Of a stretch of DNA of 44,001 nt, positions 14,802 through 23,071 are shown piece after piece (within the stretch, counting starts at the first letter, position 1; every line of letters begins with the position of its first letter). The notes under the pieces are model-generated. The model made no database searches. It saw only the letters and a program-made list of their open reading frames with translations, and was not told the origin of the DNA. Source of the stretch: Nitrospirota bacterium (GTDB lineage: Bacteria > Nitrospirota > Thermodesulfovibrionia > Thermodesulfovibrionales > Magnetobacteriaceae); NCBI GenBank assembly GCA_015233895.1, contig JADFXG010000026.1:1-44001 (forward strand), written 5' to 3'. Both the position numbers and the translations under genes were made by a program.

Positions 14802-16730
14802 GTGAAAATCAGTGCTTCAGTAAATGTAATGGTGGTAGTTTTAATCCTATCTGCGCTTATGGGCGGATTTCTTGTGCGCCGTTCTGTGATGGACTTGACT
14901 AATGATGGCAGAATCGTAAATTTTGCCGGTAAAATAAGGGGCGGTACCCAAAGACTCATAAAACTTGAACTTGTAAAAAACCATGCAGAATCAGACAAAT
15001 TAATCAGCTCGACCGAAAAAATCATAGCAGGTATCATAAACGGAGATTCATCATTAGGGATACCTAAGGTAGATAACGAGTTGTTTATCACAGGGATGAA
15101 AAAGGTTGAGTCGGAGTGGAAAAAACTGAGGCAAACCATAACAGAATCAAGAGCCAATCCAGCTCTTGTTGACCAATTAGTCAACGAGAGTGAGGTTATC
15201 TTCAAATTAGCTGACGATACCACAGCTGTTGCTGAAACTCTCTCCACTCATCATGTAAATCAGGTTCGTGACGTCATGGTATTAACACTTATCTTCAATA
15301 TGCTTGTATTTGCCACCGTGTGGTTTCTTTCCAGAAGAAAAGTTCTGCATCCGATTAAACAACTCGCAGAACAGGTCAAAAACATTACCGACAAAGACCT
15401 CCGGGTTATAATAGGACATAAGAGCAACGACGAAATAGGACATTTGGCAGATGCTATGAACAATCTGATAGACTTTTTCAATGTGATAATAAATAACACC
15501 ATAACATCTATAAACAACGTTGTAAACACGATGGATATAGTAAGAACAAAAACCGACAAAACAAGTGAGGGAGCAAAGGATCAACTATCACAAACTATGC
15601 AGATAGCAACAGCTTCAACTGAGATGAGTCAAACCATAACGGACATAGCAACGAATGCCGCAATGGCAGCGGGGACATCTTCAAACTCAATGACAATAGC
15701 AGAAAAGGGTAAAGACATAGCCTTTGGAGCAATAAACACTGTAAGTGTTGTACATGCTACGACCTCAGAGCTGGCTTCTCTCATAGGCACATTAAACAGC
15801 CGCGTAAATGAAATAGGCGACATCCTTGGCGTCATAAACGATATAGCTGATCAGACTAACCTTCTGGCCTTAAACGCAGCCATAGAAGCAGCCAGGGCCG
15901 GTGAACAGGGCAGAGGGTTTGCTGTGGTGGCAGATGAGGTAAGAAAACTTGCTGAAAGAACCAAGGTGGCAACAACGGAGATTTCCAGCAAAATAAATGC
16001 TGTTCAGTCGGAGTCTGACCGTACAACAAAATCCATGGAAAACGCCTCAATAGAAGTCGGCAAAACAACAGCGCTGATGAATCAGGTAGGGGATGTGTTA
16101 AACGACATAGTAAATTCTACCAGCGAGGTGCGTGACCAGATTACCACAATAGCTACCGCAATTGACGAGCAGGCGTGCACAACGGATGATGTTGTTCAAA
16201 ATGTTGAAAAAACCTCTAATATAGCTCAGGAAATGGAAAGGGAATCAGTAGAGGTCATGAAAGAAGTCAATAAAATGATAGCCTCTGCAGAAGATCTCCG
16301 TAAAACTACTACCGGTTTTAAAACCAGAGGAGCTGAGCTCTTAGTGCTTGATTTGGCAATGACTGACCATCGTTTATGGGTAAACCGGATATTGTTTTGT
16401 CTAAAGGGAGGGGAACACATAGACCCAAACACACTCTTGGACCATACGATGTGCCGTCTTGGAAAGTGGTACTATTCTGATGGTAAGGATCTCTGCGGCC
16501 AGATGCAATGCTTTTGCTCTATGGAGCACCCTCATAAAAAATTACATGCCCTGGGCAAAGAGATAGTGACTGTTTATAACTCCGGAAACTCGCAAAAGTC
16601 ACATGAAATGTTTGTAGAGCTTGAGAATCTTTCAAAAGCGATTATAGCTTCATTAAAAGAAACAAAACAAAACCTTTCAGGGCATTTAGTTGCTGGCGGA
16701 CACTCAATGGTAAAAGCGATAGCAAACTAA
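14802..16730 (+). CDS. Methyl-accepting chemotaxis protein with C-terminal CZB domain
   Basis: 642-aa chemoreceptor. Transmembrane segment 1 is about 8-26. A helical PilJ/nitrate-sensor-like domain (about 35-150, [17 protein letters not shown]) precedes segment 2 (about 157-177) and HAMP (about 178-232). The signalling hairpin tip near 341-385 is well conserved ([20 protein letters not shown]). At the C-terminus a chemoreceptor zinc-binding (CZB) domain (about 515-620) has His523, Cys551 in CRLGKWYY, and His578/His582. CZB domains bind zinc and can sense oxidants. Three additional cysteines (565, 570, 572) lie next to the zinc site. The GTG start follows a GGGAGGGGG element. A role in pilus or flagellar taxis is possible; pilB follows. 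Confidence 0.94.
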
Positions 16731-16750
16731 AATTGAGGCAATACGGTTAC

Positions 16751-16780
16751 TTGACTATTCATTCGTGTTGTTGCTACACT
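16751..16780 (+). promoter_or_regulatory. Candidate sigma-70 promoter upstream of pilB (distal)
   Basis: TTGACT and TACACT with an 18-nt spacer, about 140 nt before pilB. Confidence 0.35.
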
Positions 16781-16839
16781 TATCATGTGTGTTTGCTCTT
16801 AAATGACAAAGGGGTGTTTTGAGAGTAAAGCAGTATGAT

Positions 16840-16868
16840 TTGTTATTTACACTAATTTTAGCTATATA
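16840..16868 (+). promoter_or_regulatory. Candidate sigma-70 promoter of pilB (proximal)
   Basis: TTGTTA and TATATA with a 17-nt spacer. Predicted start near 16875, giving a leader of about 45 nt that contains AGGAGAGAG just before the ATG. Confidence 0.4.
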
Positions 16869-16920
16869 AACGAAATATTGAATTTGCCGGTAACCTTTTA
16901 ATTTAGGAGAGAGTAAGACT

Positions 16921-18678
16921 ATGGCAGTATCAACTATCCCAATACAAGGACAGCTCCTGGTGCAGGCCGGATTGGTCACAGAAAAGCAGGTGATGGAGGC
17001 CTTCGAACTTCAAAAATCAGAGGGCAAACGTCTCGGTTCCATGCTGACAAAATTAGGACATATAAAAGAAGAGGATCTTGCCGGATTTTACAGCAAACAG
17101 TACAAAGTGCCTTTGATAGATATAGGTAAATATCAGATAGATATAGCTCTCCTTAAAAAAGTTCCCTTTGAAAAGGCAAAAAAGCATGTAATGATACCAA
17201 TTACCATGGAGGGAGAGGCCCTTAGACTTGTCATTGCCGACCCTTCAAACAACCCGGCAATTGAAGACGTTAAATTCATAACAAGGATGAAAGTGGCAAT
17301 CCATGTGGCAACTGAGTCGTCAATCATTCATGCTATTGAACAGAACTATCCTAAGACAGACCAGCAGAAGTTAGTGCCGGAGGGGGTCAGGCCTGGCGCC
17401 AAGACAACTCTGGACATGTCGGAAATTAATAAGCTTCTGGGCAAGGTCACTCAGAACATTACCATTGTAGATCAGAAAGAGGATAAGATTTCCCTCACTG
17501 AGGCCGGTACAGCGCCTATAATACAACTGGTAAATGGAATTCTGATGAATGCCATAAGCGACAGAGCAAGTGATATCCACATAGAGCCATGGGAGAAGGA
17601 ATTACGAGTAAGATATCGGATAGATGGAGTGCTAAAGCAGGCGTTTCCTCCATTTCCGGACTCCATAAAGAATCCTCTTATTTCCAGAATAAAAATAATG
17701 TCCCGTCTTGATATATCAGAGAGGCGCATTCCACAGGATGGACGTATAAAGCTCAAATACGAGGGGGGTGAGGTTGACTTCAGAGTTTCAACCCTACCGC
17801 TACAGTTTGGCGAAAAGGTTGTTATGAGACTTTTGGATAAATCCAATTTGAACCTTGATTTATCTGTTTTGGGCTTTGATGAAACGCAGCTTAATGATTT
17901 CATAGAAGCTATTGAGAAACCGTTTGGGATGGTTCTGGTAACAGGACCTACCGGAAGCGGTAAAACAACTTCTCTGTACTCAGGGCTTTCCCATCTTAAT
18001 AAACCCGGCGTGAACATTATGACGGCCGAGGACCCGGTTGAGTACAATCTTGCCGGCATTAACCAGGTACAAGTCAAGCCCGATATTGGGCTAACCTTTG
18101 CAAACGCCCTGAGGGCCTTTTTGCGGCAGGACCCTGACATAATTCTGGTTGGTGAGATAAGAGACCAGGAGACTGCAGAAATTGGAGTTAAGGCAGCTCT
18201 TACCGGACATTTAGTGCTAAGCACCCTGCATACAAACGATGCGCCATCCACAGTCACAAGACTTTTAAACATTGGGATAGAGCCTTTTTTGATATCATCG
18301 TCTGTGGTTCTCATAGTTGCCCAGAGATTAGCAAGAAGGATTTGTAAAAGCTGTAAGATAGAAGATAAAAACGTCTCTGAAACTCTGCTTTTGAAAGCTG
18401 GTGTACCAAAGGCTGAAATCCCTGATTTTAAGTGTTTTGTCGGCAGCGGTTGTCCCGAGTGCGGTGATACCGGTTATAAGGGCAGGCTGGCCTTGCATGA
18501 GGTAATGCCGATGCGTGGTGAGCTGAAAGAGGTAATTCTTTCAGGGGGCACCTCTGAGGCCATAAAAAGAGAGGCGATAAAGCAGGGGATGTTGACACTC
18601 AGGCAGAGCGGTTTAAAAAAAGTTAAATTAGGGCTTACCACTATTGAAGAGGTCTTTAGAAACACCATTGGTGATTAA
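16921..18678 (+). CDS. pilB: Type IV pilus assembly / type II secretion ATPase PilB (GspE family)
   Basis: 585-aa hexameric ATPase that powers pilus extension or pseudopilus assembly from the cytoplasmic side. An N-terminal MshEN-like domain (about 8-145) precedes the N2D domain (about 195-310), Walker A GPTGSGKTT (342-350), the Asp box TAEDPVEY, Walker B ILVGEIRDQET (408-418) and the His box HLVLSTLHTNDA. The zinc tetracysteine (Cys475, 478, 511, 514) is complete, as in extension ATPases and unlike PilT. No pilC, pilT or pilin genes are in the window. AGGAGAGAG supports the ATG. Confidence 0.95.
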   Translation: MAVSTIPIQGQLLVQAGLVTEKQVMEAFELQKSEGKRLGSMLTKLGHIKEEDLAGFYSKQYKVPLIDIGKYQIDIALLKKVPFEKAKKHVMIPITMEGEALRLVIADPSNNPAIEDVKFITRMKVAIHVATESSIIHAIEQNYPKTDQQKLVPEGVRPGAKTTLDMSEINKLLGKVTQNITIVDQKEDKISLTEAGTAPIIQLVNGILMNAISDRASDIHIEPWEKELRVRYRIDGVLKQAFPPFPDSIKNPLISRIKIMSRLDISERRIPQDGRIKLKYEGGEVDFRVSTLPLQFGEKVVMRLLDKSNLNLDLSVLGFDETQLNDFIEAIEKPFGMVLVTGPTGSGKTTSLYSGLSHLNKPGVNIMTAEDPVEYNLAGINQVQVKPDIGLTFANALRAFLRQDPDIILVGEIRDQETAEIGVKAALTGHLVLSTLHTNDAPSTVTRLLNIGIEPFLISSSVVLIVAQRLARRICKSCKIEDKNVSETLLLKAGVPKAEIPDFKCFVGSGCPECGDTGYKGRLALHEVMPMRGELKEVILSGGTSEAIKREAIKQGMLTLRQSGLKKVKLGLTTIEEVFRNTIGD

Positions 18679-18704
18679 AATGATGTTAAAAACGAGGGTT
18701 TATA

Positions 18705-19160
18705 ATGGCAAAACTTGTTACACTGCTTGAGGTACTATCCGATGAGGACATACAGTGGCTCTTGTCAACAGGGATTGAGGAAACAATTGGCCCCGATACT
18801 GTGGTCATACAAGCAGGTGAATACATCGAATACATATACATAGTTATGGAGGGCTCATTAGGTGTGTTTCTTGCTCAGGGGAACAAGCAGATAAACACAG
18901 TTGGACCTGGAGAGATTCTTGGGGAGATGTCCTACATTGAGGACACGCAAACATCCGCCACAGTTATGTCACTTGAGACTACGGTGCTTCTTAAAATATC
19001 AAGAGAATTCCTTGACAACAGGATAAGTGATGAGCCTGATTTTGGACGGAGGTTGTACAAAGGAGTCAGCATCGCGGTGTCACAAAGACTTCGGCAAGCC
19101 ATGTTACGGGTGGACTACATGCTTGATATGATAGAAAAGGCAAAAATATGGCATATATGA
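18705..19160 (+). CDS. Stand-alone cyclic-nucleotide-binding-fold protein
   Basis: 151 aa consisting of one CRP-type beta-barrel (about 20-125) and a C-terminal helix, with no DNA-binding domain. The phosphate-binding cassette is GEILGEMSY followed by DTQTSATV. The glutamate that contacts ribose is kept, but the arginine that normally neutralises the cyclic phosphate (R-S-A) is a threonine (T-S-A). It may bind an altered ligand or act only as a protein module. It lies 26 nt after pilB and 10 nt before ubiX, so a role in controlling PilB is plausible but inferred from position. Confidence 0.85.
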   Translation: MAKLVTLLEVLSDEDIQWLLSTGIEETIGPDTVVIQAGEYIEYIYIVMEGSLGVFLAQGNKQINTVGPGEILGEMSYIEDTQTSATVMSLETTVLLKISREFLDNRISDEPDFGRRLYKGVSIAVSQRLRQAMLRVDYMLDMIEKAKIWHI

Positions 19161-19771: not shown

Positions 19772-21988
19772 TCATCTTACCACACTTTTCATAAAATCTA
19801 TCCAAATTGGTAAAGCTGCTTTGCTGCCGGCCTCTCCCTCGCCTATGCTTGTGTGGTCATCTCTGCCTACCCAGACACCTACTGCATACTTGTCATCAAA
19901 TCCGATAAACCACGCATCAACGTAATCATCCGTAGTGCCGGTTTTACCGTAAACGACTCTGTTTAGTGACTTTGCAGATTGCGCCGTACCCTCTGTCACA
20001 ACAGCACTCAACACCTCGTGCATCTTTTCAAGCGTAGAGTTATCCAGCACAGGTTTTATAACTGGCGTTATGTTCTCAACAGCTAAACCATATCTGTTCA
20101 CTATCTGCGTGTAAGATATAGGTTCATGTAAGTTTCCGTCTGAAAAGGCACAGTATGCTGAGACTAGTTCCAGCAGATTGACCTCCGATGCGCCAAGAGC
20201 TGAGGGCAACCGCGGGCGTATCACACTCTTTATCCCTACAAGGCGTGCCGATTCCACCACTCGTTCCATGCCGACCTTGTTTGCCAAAGACACTGTGGCC
20301 ACATTCAGAGACCGTGCAATGGCAGATTTAAGCGTAACAGTGCCATAGTACCTTCTTGTGTAGTTATGCGGAGTCCATGGCTCTCCTTTTTTTTGAAAAT
20401 ACGTCACCTCTCTGTCTTCTACCGTATCTGAGGGTTTATAACCATATCTGAAAGCTGCAAGATATACAAAGGGTTTAAATGATGACCCAGGCTGCCTCAT
20501 AGCCTGCGTTGCACGGTTAAACTGAGTCTCCCAAAAATCCGTACCACCAACCATGGCTTTTATCTCACCGGTTTTTATCTCAACTGCCAAAAGAGCTGCC
20601 TGCACGCCTTTGATATCACGTTTAGCAAATGCTTCAATAGCATTTTCAATAGCCTTTTCCGCCGTATTTTGCATATTCATATCAAGTGTAGTGTAGATTT
20701 TAAGCCCTGAGGTATAAAGGCTGTCACCGTACTTTTGCTCAAGAACCCCCTTTATATATTCCACAAAATACGGGGCCTTGTAGCTGGGGGATTCCAGATG
20801 TTTGGGAATTGGTTCGGCTAACGACTCCTTGTATTTGTTATCAGAGATGAAGCCGTTTTCGTACATCAGCCGGATAACGGTGTTTCGCCTTGAAAGGGAC
20901 CTCTGCGGCTCTTTAAAAGGAGAGTACGTTGAGGGAGCTTTGGGAATGGCAGCAAGCAGTGCTGCCTCGGCAATAGTTAACTCCTCTGTCTTTTTACCAA
21001 AATAGGTAGAGGATGCCGCCTCTATTCCGTATGTTCTGCTGCCAAAGTATGCCTGATTAAGGTACAGTGACAGGATTTCGTCTTTTGTATAGCGTCCCTC
21101 GATTTGAAACGCTATTGCAATCTCTTTAATTTTTCGAGAGAGGCTTTTTTCTGGTTTCAAAAACAGCATTTTAGCTAACTGCTGAGTTATCGTGCTCCCG
21201 CCCTGCACAATAGTGCCAGCCCTCATGTTTTCTATAAATGCCTTTACAACCCTCTGAAAATCCACTCCGAAGTGTTTATAAAAACGAACATCCTCAACGG
21301 CAATAAATGCTTTTTTCACATGCTCAGGAATCTTATAAGACGGTACAAAACGTCTTCTTTCTATAAACACCTCAGCCAGAAACTCACCGTTTGTGGAAAA
21401 TATCCTTGAGGACTCAAGCGGAGTGTACTCCTCAAGTAGTTTCACCTTAGGTAAATCCGAAATGCTCCACAGGATAAAACCCCCGGCTCCCCCTATTGTC
21501 AGAGAGGCTACAAGCGCAAAAATCAAGAGCACTTTTTTAACAAAACTCAGATATGGATTTTTAGTATCACCTGAAAATAAATTGTATAGAATGCTTAAAA
21601 AAGTGGTAAATCTGAGATACAACTTATTTTTAATAAAATAGACCTCGCGTACTTTGGCTAATATCAACTCAGGATCAAGGGGATCAGCCATGCACATATC
21701 GGCGCGTATTCCCATATCTGTGAAAATGTGCTCCGTGTATGGTTCACAAAGGACTATTATTGCAGATTTCGGGAGCTTACTTCTGAGAGAGCCAACTATT
21801 GTGTAGTTTTTGGAAAAGTGGTACTTTGAATCAAATATAATAATAGAGGGAGCATGCTTTGATACTGTCCTTTCAAGGTCAAACACTGTTTTGATAAGCT
21901 TAGCCTTAAGAGCACCGCTTTCAAGTATTTTAAGGAGCAGGTTGCCCCTTGTTTTATCTATGGAAAAGACAACAACAGCAACAGCCAT
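19772..21988 (-). CDS. Class A penicillin-binding protein (PBP1A type) with N-terminal degenerate receiver-like domain
   Basis: 738-aa bifunctional peptidoglycan synthase. Residues 1-115 form a CheY-like alternating alpha/beta domain (VAVVVFSIDKTRG; SIIIFDSKY with Asp53 at the phospho-acceptor place; SAIIVLCEP; ADPLDPELILAKV) in which the switch Thr/Ser and the conserved Lys are missing. Then come a transmembrane segment (about 153-175), the glycosyltransferase 51 domain (Glu232 in AVEDVRFYKHFGVD; GGSTITQQLAKML at 263-275) and the transpeptidase domain (Ser502 and Lys505 in GSSFKPF, SLN at 560-562, KTG at 682-684). All catalytic motifs are intact. The extra domain would be cytoplasmic. The ATG is 6 nt after the actin-like gene, so the two are co-translated. 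Confidence 0.94.
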   Translation of the reverse strand: MAVAVVVFSIDKTRGNLLLKILESGALKAKLIKTVFDLERTVSKHAPSIIIFDSKYHFSKNYTIVGSLRSKLPKSAIIVLCEPYTEHIFTDMGIRADMCMADPLDPELILAKVREVYFIKNKLYLRFTTFLSILYNLFSGDTKNPYLSFVKKVLLIFALVASLTIGGAGGFILWSISDLPKVKLLEEYTPLESSRIFSTNGEFLAEVFIERRRFVPSYKIPEHVKKAFIAVEDVRFYKHFGVDFQRVVKAFIENMRAGTIVQGGSTITQQLAKMLFLKPEKSLSRKIKEIAIAFQIEGRYTKDEILSLYLNQAYFGSRTYGIEAASSTYFGKKTEELTIAEAALLAAIPKAPSTYSPFKEPQRSLSRRNTVIRLMYENGFISDNKYKESLAEPIPKHLESPSYKAPYFVEYIKGVLEQKYGDSLYTSGLKIYTTLDMNMQNTAEKAIENAIEAFAKRDIKGVQAALLAVEIKTGEIKAMVGGTDFWETQFNRATQAMRQPGSSFKPFVYLAAFRYGYKPSDTVEDREVTYFQKKGEPWTPHNYTRRYYGTVTLKSAIARSLNVATVSLANKVGMERVVESARLVGIKSVIRPRLPSALGASEVNLLELVSAYCAFSDGNLHEPISYTQIVNRYGLAVENITPVIKPVLDNSTLEKMHEVLSAVVTEGTAQSAKSLNRVVYGKTGTTDDYVDAWFIGFDDKYAVGVWVGRDDHTSIGEGEAGSKAALPIWIDFMKSVVR

Positions 21989-21994
21989 TAAATA

Positions 21995-23071
21995 TCAGGA
22001 TTCCTCTGAAAGGGCCATGTACAGCGCGCCCTTGGCAGTGGAATTAAGAGGGTCCTCGGCAATTCTTACTGATGATATCTGAACAGGCAGACTGACGTTC
22101 TTAAGCGCTCTTTCAAACCGTTCCTTTAAGCCATTAGCCAAAGCGCCGCCTCCACTTATGACAAGAGGCACGGGTTTTGCAAATCTCGGCACTTTATCCG
22201 AGGAGGCTAACACCTGCTCCAGACTCTGTGTAAGATGTAATAAGAGATCGTCATAGAATATTTGAAGGGCTGTTTCCACCCTGTTTCTGGGTTCACGCGT
22301 AAGACTCAGTTCTTTTTCCTTTATCAATTTTATTTTTGTCTGGGACTCTCCCAACGTTCTGCCAACCATCGAGTCAATGTAATCCCCGCCCTTTTGAATG
22401 CTGTAGGAAAGAATCGGCACAGCCATATAAGCAAGACAGACGTTACACATGCCGCCCCCCATGCTGATTCCAATACCGGTGTAGTTGTCGTTTGACAATT
22501 CAGCAGTTATGACGGCTAAACCCTCGTTTACAGAAATAGGTAAATATCCCATACCTTCAAGGGTGCGCTTCATGACGGTTTCATGATAGAGCACCGATAT
22601 TCGTGTATCAACCGGTTCACCGGGCACACTGAACGCTATGACCTCACCGGGTTTTTTAGGCGGCGGGAGCATAGTTTTCATAATAGCTGCTATAACATTT
22701 ATTCCCTCATCTTCTTTAGGGCTTAAAAGTCCTCCCTCAATGGGACGGCGCGTGCTTGAGTTAAAAGTTGCGGCAAACATATCGGAGGAATTCCCGATTA
22801 TATAAAACTGTCCGTTCCTTGCAAAATACATGATTTCATTTTTTGCAAACACCTTACCGGTAAACTTAGATCTCGGCACTGCAAAGAAGGCATTAAGTTG
22901 TTTAACTGTTTGAACAGCGCCGCTTCTCATCTTTGCAAGCACTATGTTGGATGTTCCTATGTCTAACCCTGCAGGTCCCACCAACTGAGAGTTTTCCGTT
23001 TGCCGATCCCGTTCTGAGGCATTCCTTTTACCCGTATCCATTAACTTAACGCTATCGCTTATTTCAGCCAT
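21995..23071 (-). CDS. Actin/MreB-superfamily ATPase, divergent
   Basis: 358-aa cytoplasmic protein of the actin-Hsp70 ATPase superfamily. A hydrophilic 34-residue extension precedes phosphate-1 GLDIGTSNIVLAK (35-47). The catalytic-type glutamate is in VNEGLAV (Glu183), phosphate-2 is GIGISMGGGMCNV (199-211), and the adenosine motif is LVISGGGALANGLKERF (303-319). In phosphate-2 the usual Asp (DxGGG) is Ser203. It is too divergent to call MreB, ParM, FtsA, PilM or MamK. Its pairing with the following receiver-PBP1A gene suggests a filament or scaffold for wall synthesis. GAGG precedes the ATG. Confidence 0.85.
   Translation of the reverse strand: MAEISDSVKLMDTGKRNASERDRQTENSQLVGPAGLDIGTSNIVLAKMRSGAVQTVKQLNAFFAVPRSKFTGKVFAKNEIMYFARNGQFYIIGNSSDMFAATFNSSTRRPIEGGLLSPKEDEGINVIAAIMKTMLPPPKKPGEVIAFSVPGEPVDTRISVLYHETVMKRTLEGMGYLPISVNEGLAVITAELSNDNYTGIGISMGGGMCNVCLAYMAVPILSYSIQKGGDYIDSMVGRTLGESQTKIKLIKEKELSLTREPRNRVETALQIFYDDLLLHLTQSLEQVLASSDKVPRFAKPVPLVISGGGALANGLKERFERALKNVSLPVQISSVRIAEDPLNSTAKGALYMALSEES

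Follow-up and report, generated by a model that had tools for sequence, protein, structure and literature searches.

A volactin/Mad28-family actin gene and a receiver-fused PBP1A gene form a conserved pair in magnetotactic Nitrospirota: a candidate filament-linked module for wall synthesis

We have found a two-gene arrangement in which an actin of the volactin/Mad28 family is followed directly by a class A penicillin-binding protein (PBP1A) carrying an extra, degenerate receiver domain at its N-terminus. Receiver-PBP1A genes stand directly behind an actin gene of this family, on the same strand, at 22 of 23 loci in two groups of bacteria, and the adjacency is thus far beyond chance. Our overall reading, which we favor with moderate confidence, is that the pseudo-receiver serves as an actin-binding adaptor and that, by way of the fusion, a class A synthase is linked to a curvature-sensing filament. 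The actin family is known; its coupling to a PBP is new, as the pairing was found in no paper searched. Literature searches on receiver-PBP fusions, on Mad28 together with penicillin-binding proteins, and on Magnetobacterium together with penicillin-binding proteins returned nothing relevant.

The window, meaning the whole stretch of DNA analyzed, comprises 44,001 nucleotides of contig JADFXG010000026.1 (assembly GCA_015233895.1). Both genes are on the minus strand, the actin at 21995..23071 (358 aa) and the receiver-PBP1A fusion at 19772..21988 (738 aa). A preliminary description had the actin gene ending 6 nt before the PBP start codon among unrelated neighbors, and the locus is built in just this way: the spacer between the actin stop and the PBP ATG, read from the sequence, is TATTTA (21989..21994, minus strand), and the flanking genes are aspS upstream and a convergent ubiX downstream. 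A scan for promoters and terminators gave counts that were not above those of shuffled sequences. Elsewhere in the window (14802-19160), genes for a methyl-accepting chemotaxis protein with PilJ-like and zinc-binding CZB domains, an MshE/PilB-type ATPase and a small cNMP-binding protein stand in a row, and are possibly a type IV pilus control cluster.

The downstream product is a PBP1A by family score (TIGR02074, 618 bits against a cut-off of 509) and matches Pfam Transgly (2.5e-66) and Transpeptidase (9.7e-29). All parts are encoded on the minus strand. A cytoplasmic pseudo-receiver domain (residues 1-118; 21635..21988), recognized by profile, AF2 model and fold match, is followed by a transmembrane helix at about residues 153-176 (21461..21532), placed by a hydropathy maximum at 153-155 and a BLASTP alignment start at 154. 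Next come a glycosyltransferase 51 (transglycosylase) domain (PF00912, residues 202-375; 20864..21385; EDVRFYKH at 232) and a transpeptidase domain (PF00905, residues 466-718; 19835..20593; SSFK at 502, SLN at 560, KTG at 682). The catalytic motifs of both enzymes are intact (EDxxFxxH232, SxxK502, SxN560 and KTG682), and family score, both motif sets and the N-terminal transmembrane helix are all those of a class A PBP1A. The protein had been described as a class A synthase with an extra cytoplasmic domain, and a complete PBP1A with a receiver fold in its first ~118 residues bears this out. The same genome encodes a receiver-less PBP1A paralogue that is 59% identical to the full catalytic part of the fusion and aligns only from residue 154 on; the fusion point would therefore lie just ahead of the transmembrane helix, and the added domain is what sets the protein apart from an ordinary PBP1A. 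Replacement of the housekeeping PBP1A by the fusion was ruled out, the receiver-less enzyme being kept in this genome and in four checked fusion-carrying relatives of the same bacterial family.

The upstream product belongs to Pfam Volactin (PF25216; E 5e-80, 269.8 bits against a curated cut-off of 35) and is 35-37% identical to proteins of Haloarcula and Natrinema. The PDB was searched with the single protein, which gave no match, and with a profile, which gave marginal matches only; the structure therefore rests on an AF2 model (mean pLDDT 86.9) whose nearest solved folds are MreB and MamK. MreB itself was rejected as an identity (NCBIfam MreB, 15.6 bits against 365.75; mreC and mreD not adjacent; the true mreB at G000:C9), as was MamK by family scores. 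The hallmarks of Mad28 are a Ser replacing Asp in the phosphate-2 motif and an xExx sequence in connecting region 1 (PMC10653835). Both are present in the window actin, as ISMGGG with an invariant Ser203 and as NEG with an invariant Glu183. Desulfamplus magnetovallimortis BW-1, for which one mad28 has been reported (PMC10653835), has exactly one PF25216 gene. Given the shared Pfam membership, the phosphate-2 Ser and this single gene in BW-1, volactin and Mad28 are most likely one family, and in the literature searched neither side mentions the other. The system had been put forward as a candidate for an undescribed one; this stands for the coupling to a PBP and falls for the actin, which is of a known family. 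The window gene is on contig C26 and mamK on contig C2, so that it lies neither in nor near the magnetosome gene cluster, and we class its product as a Mad28 paralogue, not demonstrably Mad28 proper. Polymerization into filaments has been demonstrated for Mad28 homologues only (PMC10653835), and we infer it for the paralogue in the window.

Besides this genome, all 18 further genomes sampled from the window's bacterial family carry actins of this kind, mostly in several copies each. Some copies stand out in themselves. Genome G007 has a divergent volactin (36% identity; L058:8238-9269, minus strand; MinD-like ATPase upstream) on a long branch beside the haloarchaeal proteins. Locus L128 (6387-9083, plus strand) holds a tandem pair of divergent volactins followed by a 514-aa protein that, judged by eye, resembles a peptidase of caspase type with an extra C-terminal domain. 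A large Desulfobulbaceae-type clade (L099, L105, L111 and similar loci) has no adjoining receiver and recurrently neighbors genes of about 1250 aa, 600 aa and 850-930 aa. In G009, two near-identical copies are broken at contig ends (C4, C32, C51 and C96; L061, L062, L264 and L265), one of them adjoining magnetosome-like genes.

Three contexts of the actin were seen: followed by a receiver-PBP1A; followed by a free receiver (140-220 aa), as a rule with a MinD-like ATPase after it; and beside other neighbors, in some cases mamK and companions. Among 41 analyzed actin-receiver pairs the receiver is downstream, with spacers of -4 to +54 nt; it is free-standing in 22 of them, usually with the MinD-like ATPase next, and fused to PBP1A in 19. 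This genome itself also has a free receiver directly after a paralogous actin (L042). The neighborhood survey suggested by the preliminary description thus upholds the pairing from the PBP side, and does not from the actin side, where only 14 of 75 tabulated loci, a minority across the whole actin family, are PBP-linked. The claim of a two-gene wall-synthesis module accordingly survives as a conserved pair, probably passed between phyla as a whole, with the amendment that the more general partner of the actin is the receiver.

Within the window's bacterial family, 17 receiver-PBP1A genes are spread over 16 of 19 genomes, and 16 of these genes follow an actin; the exception is in G009 (L179). 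The fusion was not detected in the other three genomes, one of which is only 64% complete. A further pair, in MYbin6 (L098), has a broken PBP reading frame, and in G017 (L079:3101-4258, plus strand) it is the actin before an intact receiver-PBP1A that is split by a stop into two ORFs, possibly through assembly error. Among named relatives, Candidatus Magnetobacterium casense and Candidatus Magnetominusculus xianensis have the same pair. Among 396 genomes drawn from the phylum, no fusion turned up beyond this family. Five more fusions are found in Desulfobacterota-type genomes (L118, L149, L158, G123 and G337); in G337 the reading frames of receiver and PBP are shifted against each other where the two meet, and in the phylum of L118 the pair is rare (2 of 395 genomes drawn). 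Two contig ends of G123 (L207:3-1981, minus strand; L147:2-4900, plus strand) suggest a tandem in which actin, receiver-PBP1A and then directly actin, receiver and MinD succeed one another. That the two genes are merely neighbors, by chance or by hitchhiking in an operon, agrees with the single orphan receiver-PBP1A of G009. We hold this explanation to be extremely improbable, with 22 of 23 loci paired across two bacterial groups, amid differing flanks, at spacers of -4 to 54 nt and with probable joint transfer.

The phylogenies bear on how the pair arose and spread. In the PBP tree, the receiver-PBPs and the receiver-less PBP1As of the window's bacterial family form one clade (support 97/98), and the Desulfobacterota receiver-PBPs nest inside the Nitrospirota PBP1A clade, with the receiver-less PBP1As of Desulfobacterota-type genomes outside it. 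In 81% of bootstraps a branch sets the receiver-less proteins apart from the others, which fits one fusion. In the actin tree the actins linked to a PBP group together (2 changes; 16.6 in shuffles), and a single clade for them is not rejected (p-AU 0.35). The simplest reading of these trees is that a single fusion probably took place in the Nitrospirota lineage and that the whole pair was then probably transferred between phyla. Distance matrices gave correlations of 0.94 between actin and receiver and 0.98 between actin and the catalytic part. Controlling for the catalytic part lowers the actin-receiver value to 0.19; the correlation is explained by shared history and so speaks for joint inheritance only. 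Specific co-evolution of actin and receiver was dropped as a line of evidence on this ground.

The receiver domain is degenerate, for which reason a single-sequence Pfam scan of residues 1-118 gave no Response_reg match. A family profile finds Spo0F and many other receivers (best 3e-9), and the AF2 model shows a fold of five alpha/beta units (block pLDDT 82-92), its best solved match being the receiver of HupR (Z 16.8, rmsd 2.3, 133 residues). The free receivers are homologous to it (best BLAST E 1e-12 with the window domain as query; E down to 1e-47 by a profile including fused and free members). D53, the Asp in the phosphoacceptor position, is kept in 19 of 19 fused and 21 of 22 free receivers. 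True receivers have an acidic pair after strand 1; here (F/Y)S stands in its place and no more than one acidic residue, D11, is nearby. In the alignment no Lys precedes P103, the conserved Pro after strand 5. With the acidic pair replaced and the switch Lys missing, the domain is a pseudo-receiver, a receiver fold stripped of the canonical phosphorylation residues apart from D53. Residues common to the fused and free forms (S9, D11, R14, G15, D53, C99, P103, P106 and K112) map, by the secondary structure of the model, to the loops that surround the former phosphorylation site and to the first and last helices. Such degeneracy points to binding rather than signaling. A phosphorylation switch, by which a histidine kinase regulates PBP1A via the receiver and the actin is a co-transcribed neighbor, would account for the near-invariance of D53, but it is made quite improbable by the loss of the other canonical residues, by the free receivers that pair with actins without any PBP, and by the finding of no histidine kinase among the identified genes adjoining the pair.

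The free receivers also indicate what the domain may bind. The actin is the partner common to both arrangements, the PBP being absent from one and the MinD-like protein from the other, which makes the receiver a likely actin-binding adaptor; and since free-standing homologues of it pair with paralogous actins, a link from filament to synthase through the receiver is the best reading of the fusion. A pseudo-receiver gene between or next to a Mad28-type actin and a MinD-like ATPase is seen at L042:8987-10341 (plus strand) and also at L119, L132 and L159. This unit is conserved in magnetotactic Nitrospirota and Desulfobacterota, and no name for its receiver protein was found in the literature searched. 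The MinD-like ATPase beyond the free receiver is probably Mad29, described as an ATPase close to Mad28 (PMC9840458, PMC7951924). The unit resembles the CpaE/TadZ-type atypical receivers, in which a degenerate receiver works with a MinD-like ATPase, and the CpaE-type structures 4dn6 and 4dad are among the fold matches of the receiver model; it differs from them in that receiver and ATPase are separate genes and the actin is the constant partner.

The genome has a MamK over the curated cut-off and, together with the named Magnetobacterium and Magnetominusculus relatives that carry the same pair, this places it in a magnetotactic Nitrospirota lineage. MamK also exceeds the cut-off in 14 of 15 searched genomes of the window's bacterial family and in all five sampled genomes outside it with other actin contexts. 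At three magnetotactic Desulfobacterota loci, the actin-receiver unit is downstream of a run of coiled-coil genes resembling the mad20-26 group, 9-35 kb from mamK. The receiver-PBP1A could be mainly an anchor, fixing the filament to membrane and wall for the positioning of magnetosome chains or other cargo while its synthase activity is housekeeping. In keeping with such an anchor are the near-universal MamK of the family, the known role of Mad28 in magnetosome-chain positioning (PMC12748827, PMC12713370), and the N-terminal tails of the actins. These tails measure 28-54 aa in the PBP-linked actins of the window's bacterial family, most paralogues having a long helical one, a shortening that would make sense with the PBP as membrane anchor. 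Several observations nevertheless make the anchor explanation unlikely. The two catalytic domains of the PBP are intact and match the actin in degree of conservation, and a plain membrane anchor has no need of a whole bifunctional synthase. In addition, none of the five fusion-carrying genomes outside Nitrospirota, whose completeness is unstated, has a MamK match over the cut-off, which suggests that the role of the module probably extends beyond magnetosomes. One of them, G123, has both the PBP-linked and the MinD-type arrangement, so the MinD-type unit is not strictly tied to magnetotaxis either.

Among known systems, the Rod complex (MreB-MreCD-RodA-PBP2) would share with the window pair, judging from its genes, an actin that guides a peptidoglycan synthase. 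The pair differs in the actin family and in the synthase, the Rod complex using a class B PBP plus RodA and coupling via MreC/MreD. A complete mreB-mreC-mreD-mrdA-rodA operon is present on another contig of this genome (L084), with MreB called by Pfam and the others from gene order, size and sequence starts, unscored; the pair is therefore distinct from the MreB-RodA/PBP2 elongasome, as had been proposed. With Mad28 of magnetotactic Desulfobacterota and Nitrospirota the pair shares the actin family, the phosphate-2 Ser and, in MinD-linked loci, the adjoining pseudo-receiver. Mad28, however, sits among magnetosome genes, often with a free receiver and a MinD-like ATPase, whereas the window copy lies apart from mamK, and the receiver it pairs with is fused to PBP1A. 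Volactin of Haloferax volcanii, a cell-shape actin (PMC10869688), is of the same Pfam family, but the two haloarchaeal loci examined, by annotation only, have no recognizable receiver or PBP.

We propose that the two genes act as one functional module. The actin would be a filament-forming ATPase of the volactin/Mad28 family, and the pseudo-receiver at the N-terminus of the PBP would be the adaptor that binds it, a role taken by a separate small protein in the paralogous loci. Through its fusion to PBP1A, the adaptor would position on the filament, or activate there, a dedicated class A synthase for peptidoglycan, plausibly where the membrane has a defined curvature; the MreB-RodA-PBP2 system and the housekeeping PBP1A would work alongside. 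The short tails of the PBP-linked actins agree with this proposal too, the PBP then standing in as membrane anchor. Mad28 binds liposomes and membranes, with a preference for the concave side of bent cells (PMC12713370), and chains are misplaced from positive curvature upon loss of mad28 (PMC12748827), which makes curvature-guided wall insertion a natural hypothesis. Binding of actin to receiver, targeting to curvature and an effect on wall growth are predictions drawn from genes and homologues. Counting against the proposal, Mad28 of RS-1 needs its N-terminal amphipathic helix region for filaments (PMC12713370), and that of the window actin is short, a 34-aa tail ahead of the core with a low-confidence helix at residues 20-28 in the AF2 model; the orphan receiver-PBP1A of G009 and the three family genomes with no detected receiver-PBP weigh in the same direction. 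In its fullest form, to which we give slightly less than an even chance, the proposal is of a second actin-guided wall system independent of MreB, in which a curvature-sensing volactin/Mad28-type filament docks a class A synthase through a pseudo-receiver, with parts shared with the magnetosome-positioning cytoskeleton, and which has spread between phyla as a two-gene cassette.

Our finding joins to peptidoglycan synthesis a curvature-sensing actin whose study has so far been confined to magnetosomes and, under the name volactin, to the shape of archaea, and it brings the Mad28 and volactin literatures together. The degenerate receiver is proposed as a simple adaptor common to magnetosome-positioning and wall-synthesis modules. 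If this is true, the small receiver protein beside many Mad28 genes would be a likely adaptor of the magnetosome cytoskeleton, and there would be a testable route by which bacteria sense the curvature of their membrane and position a class A synthase with no need of MreB.
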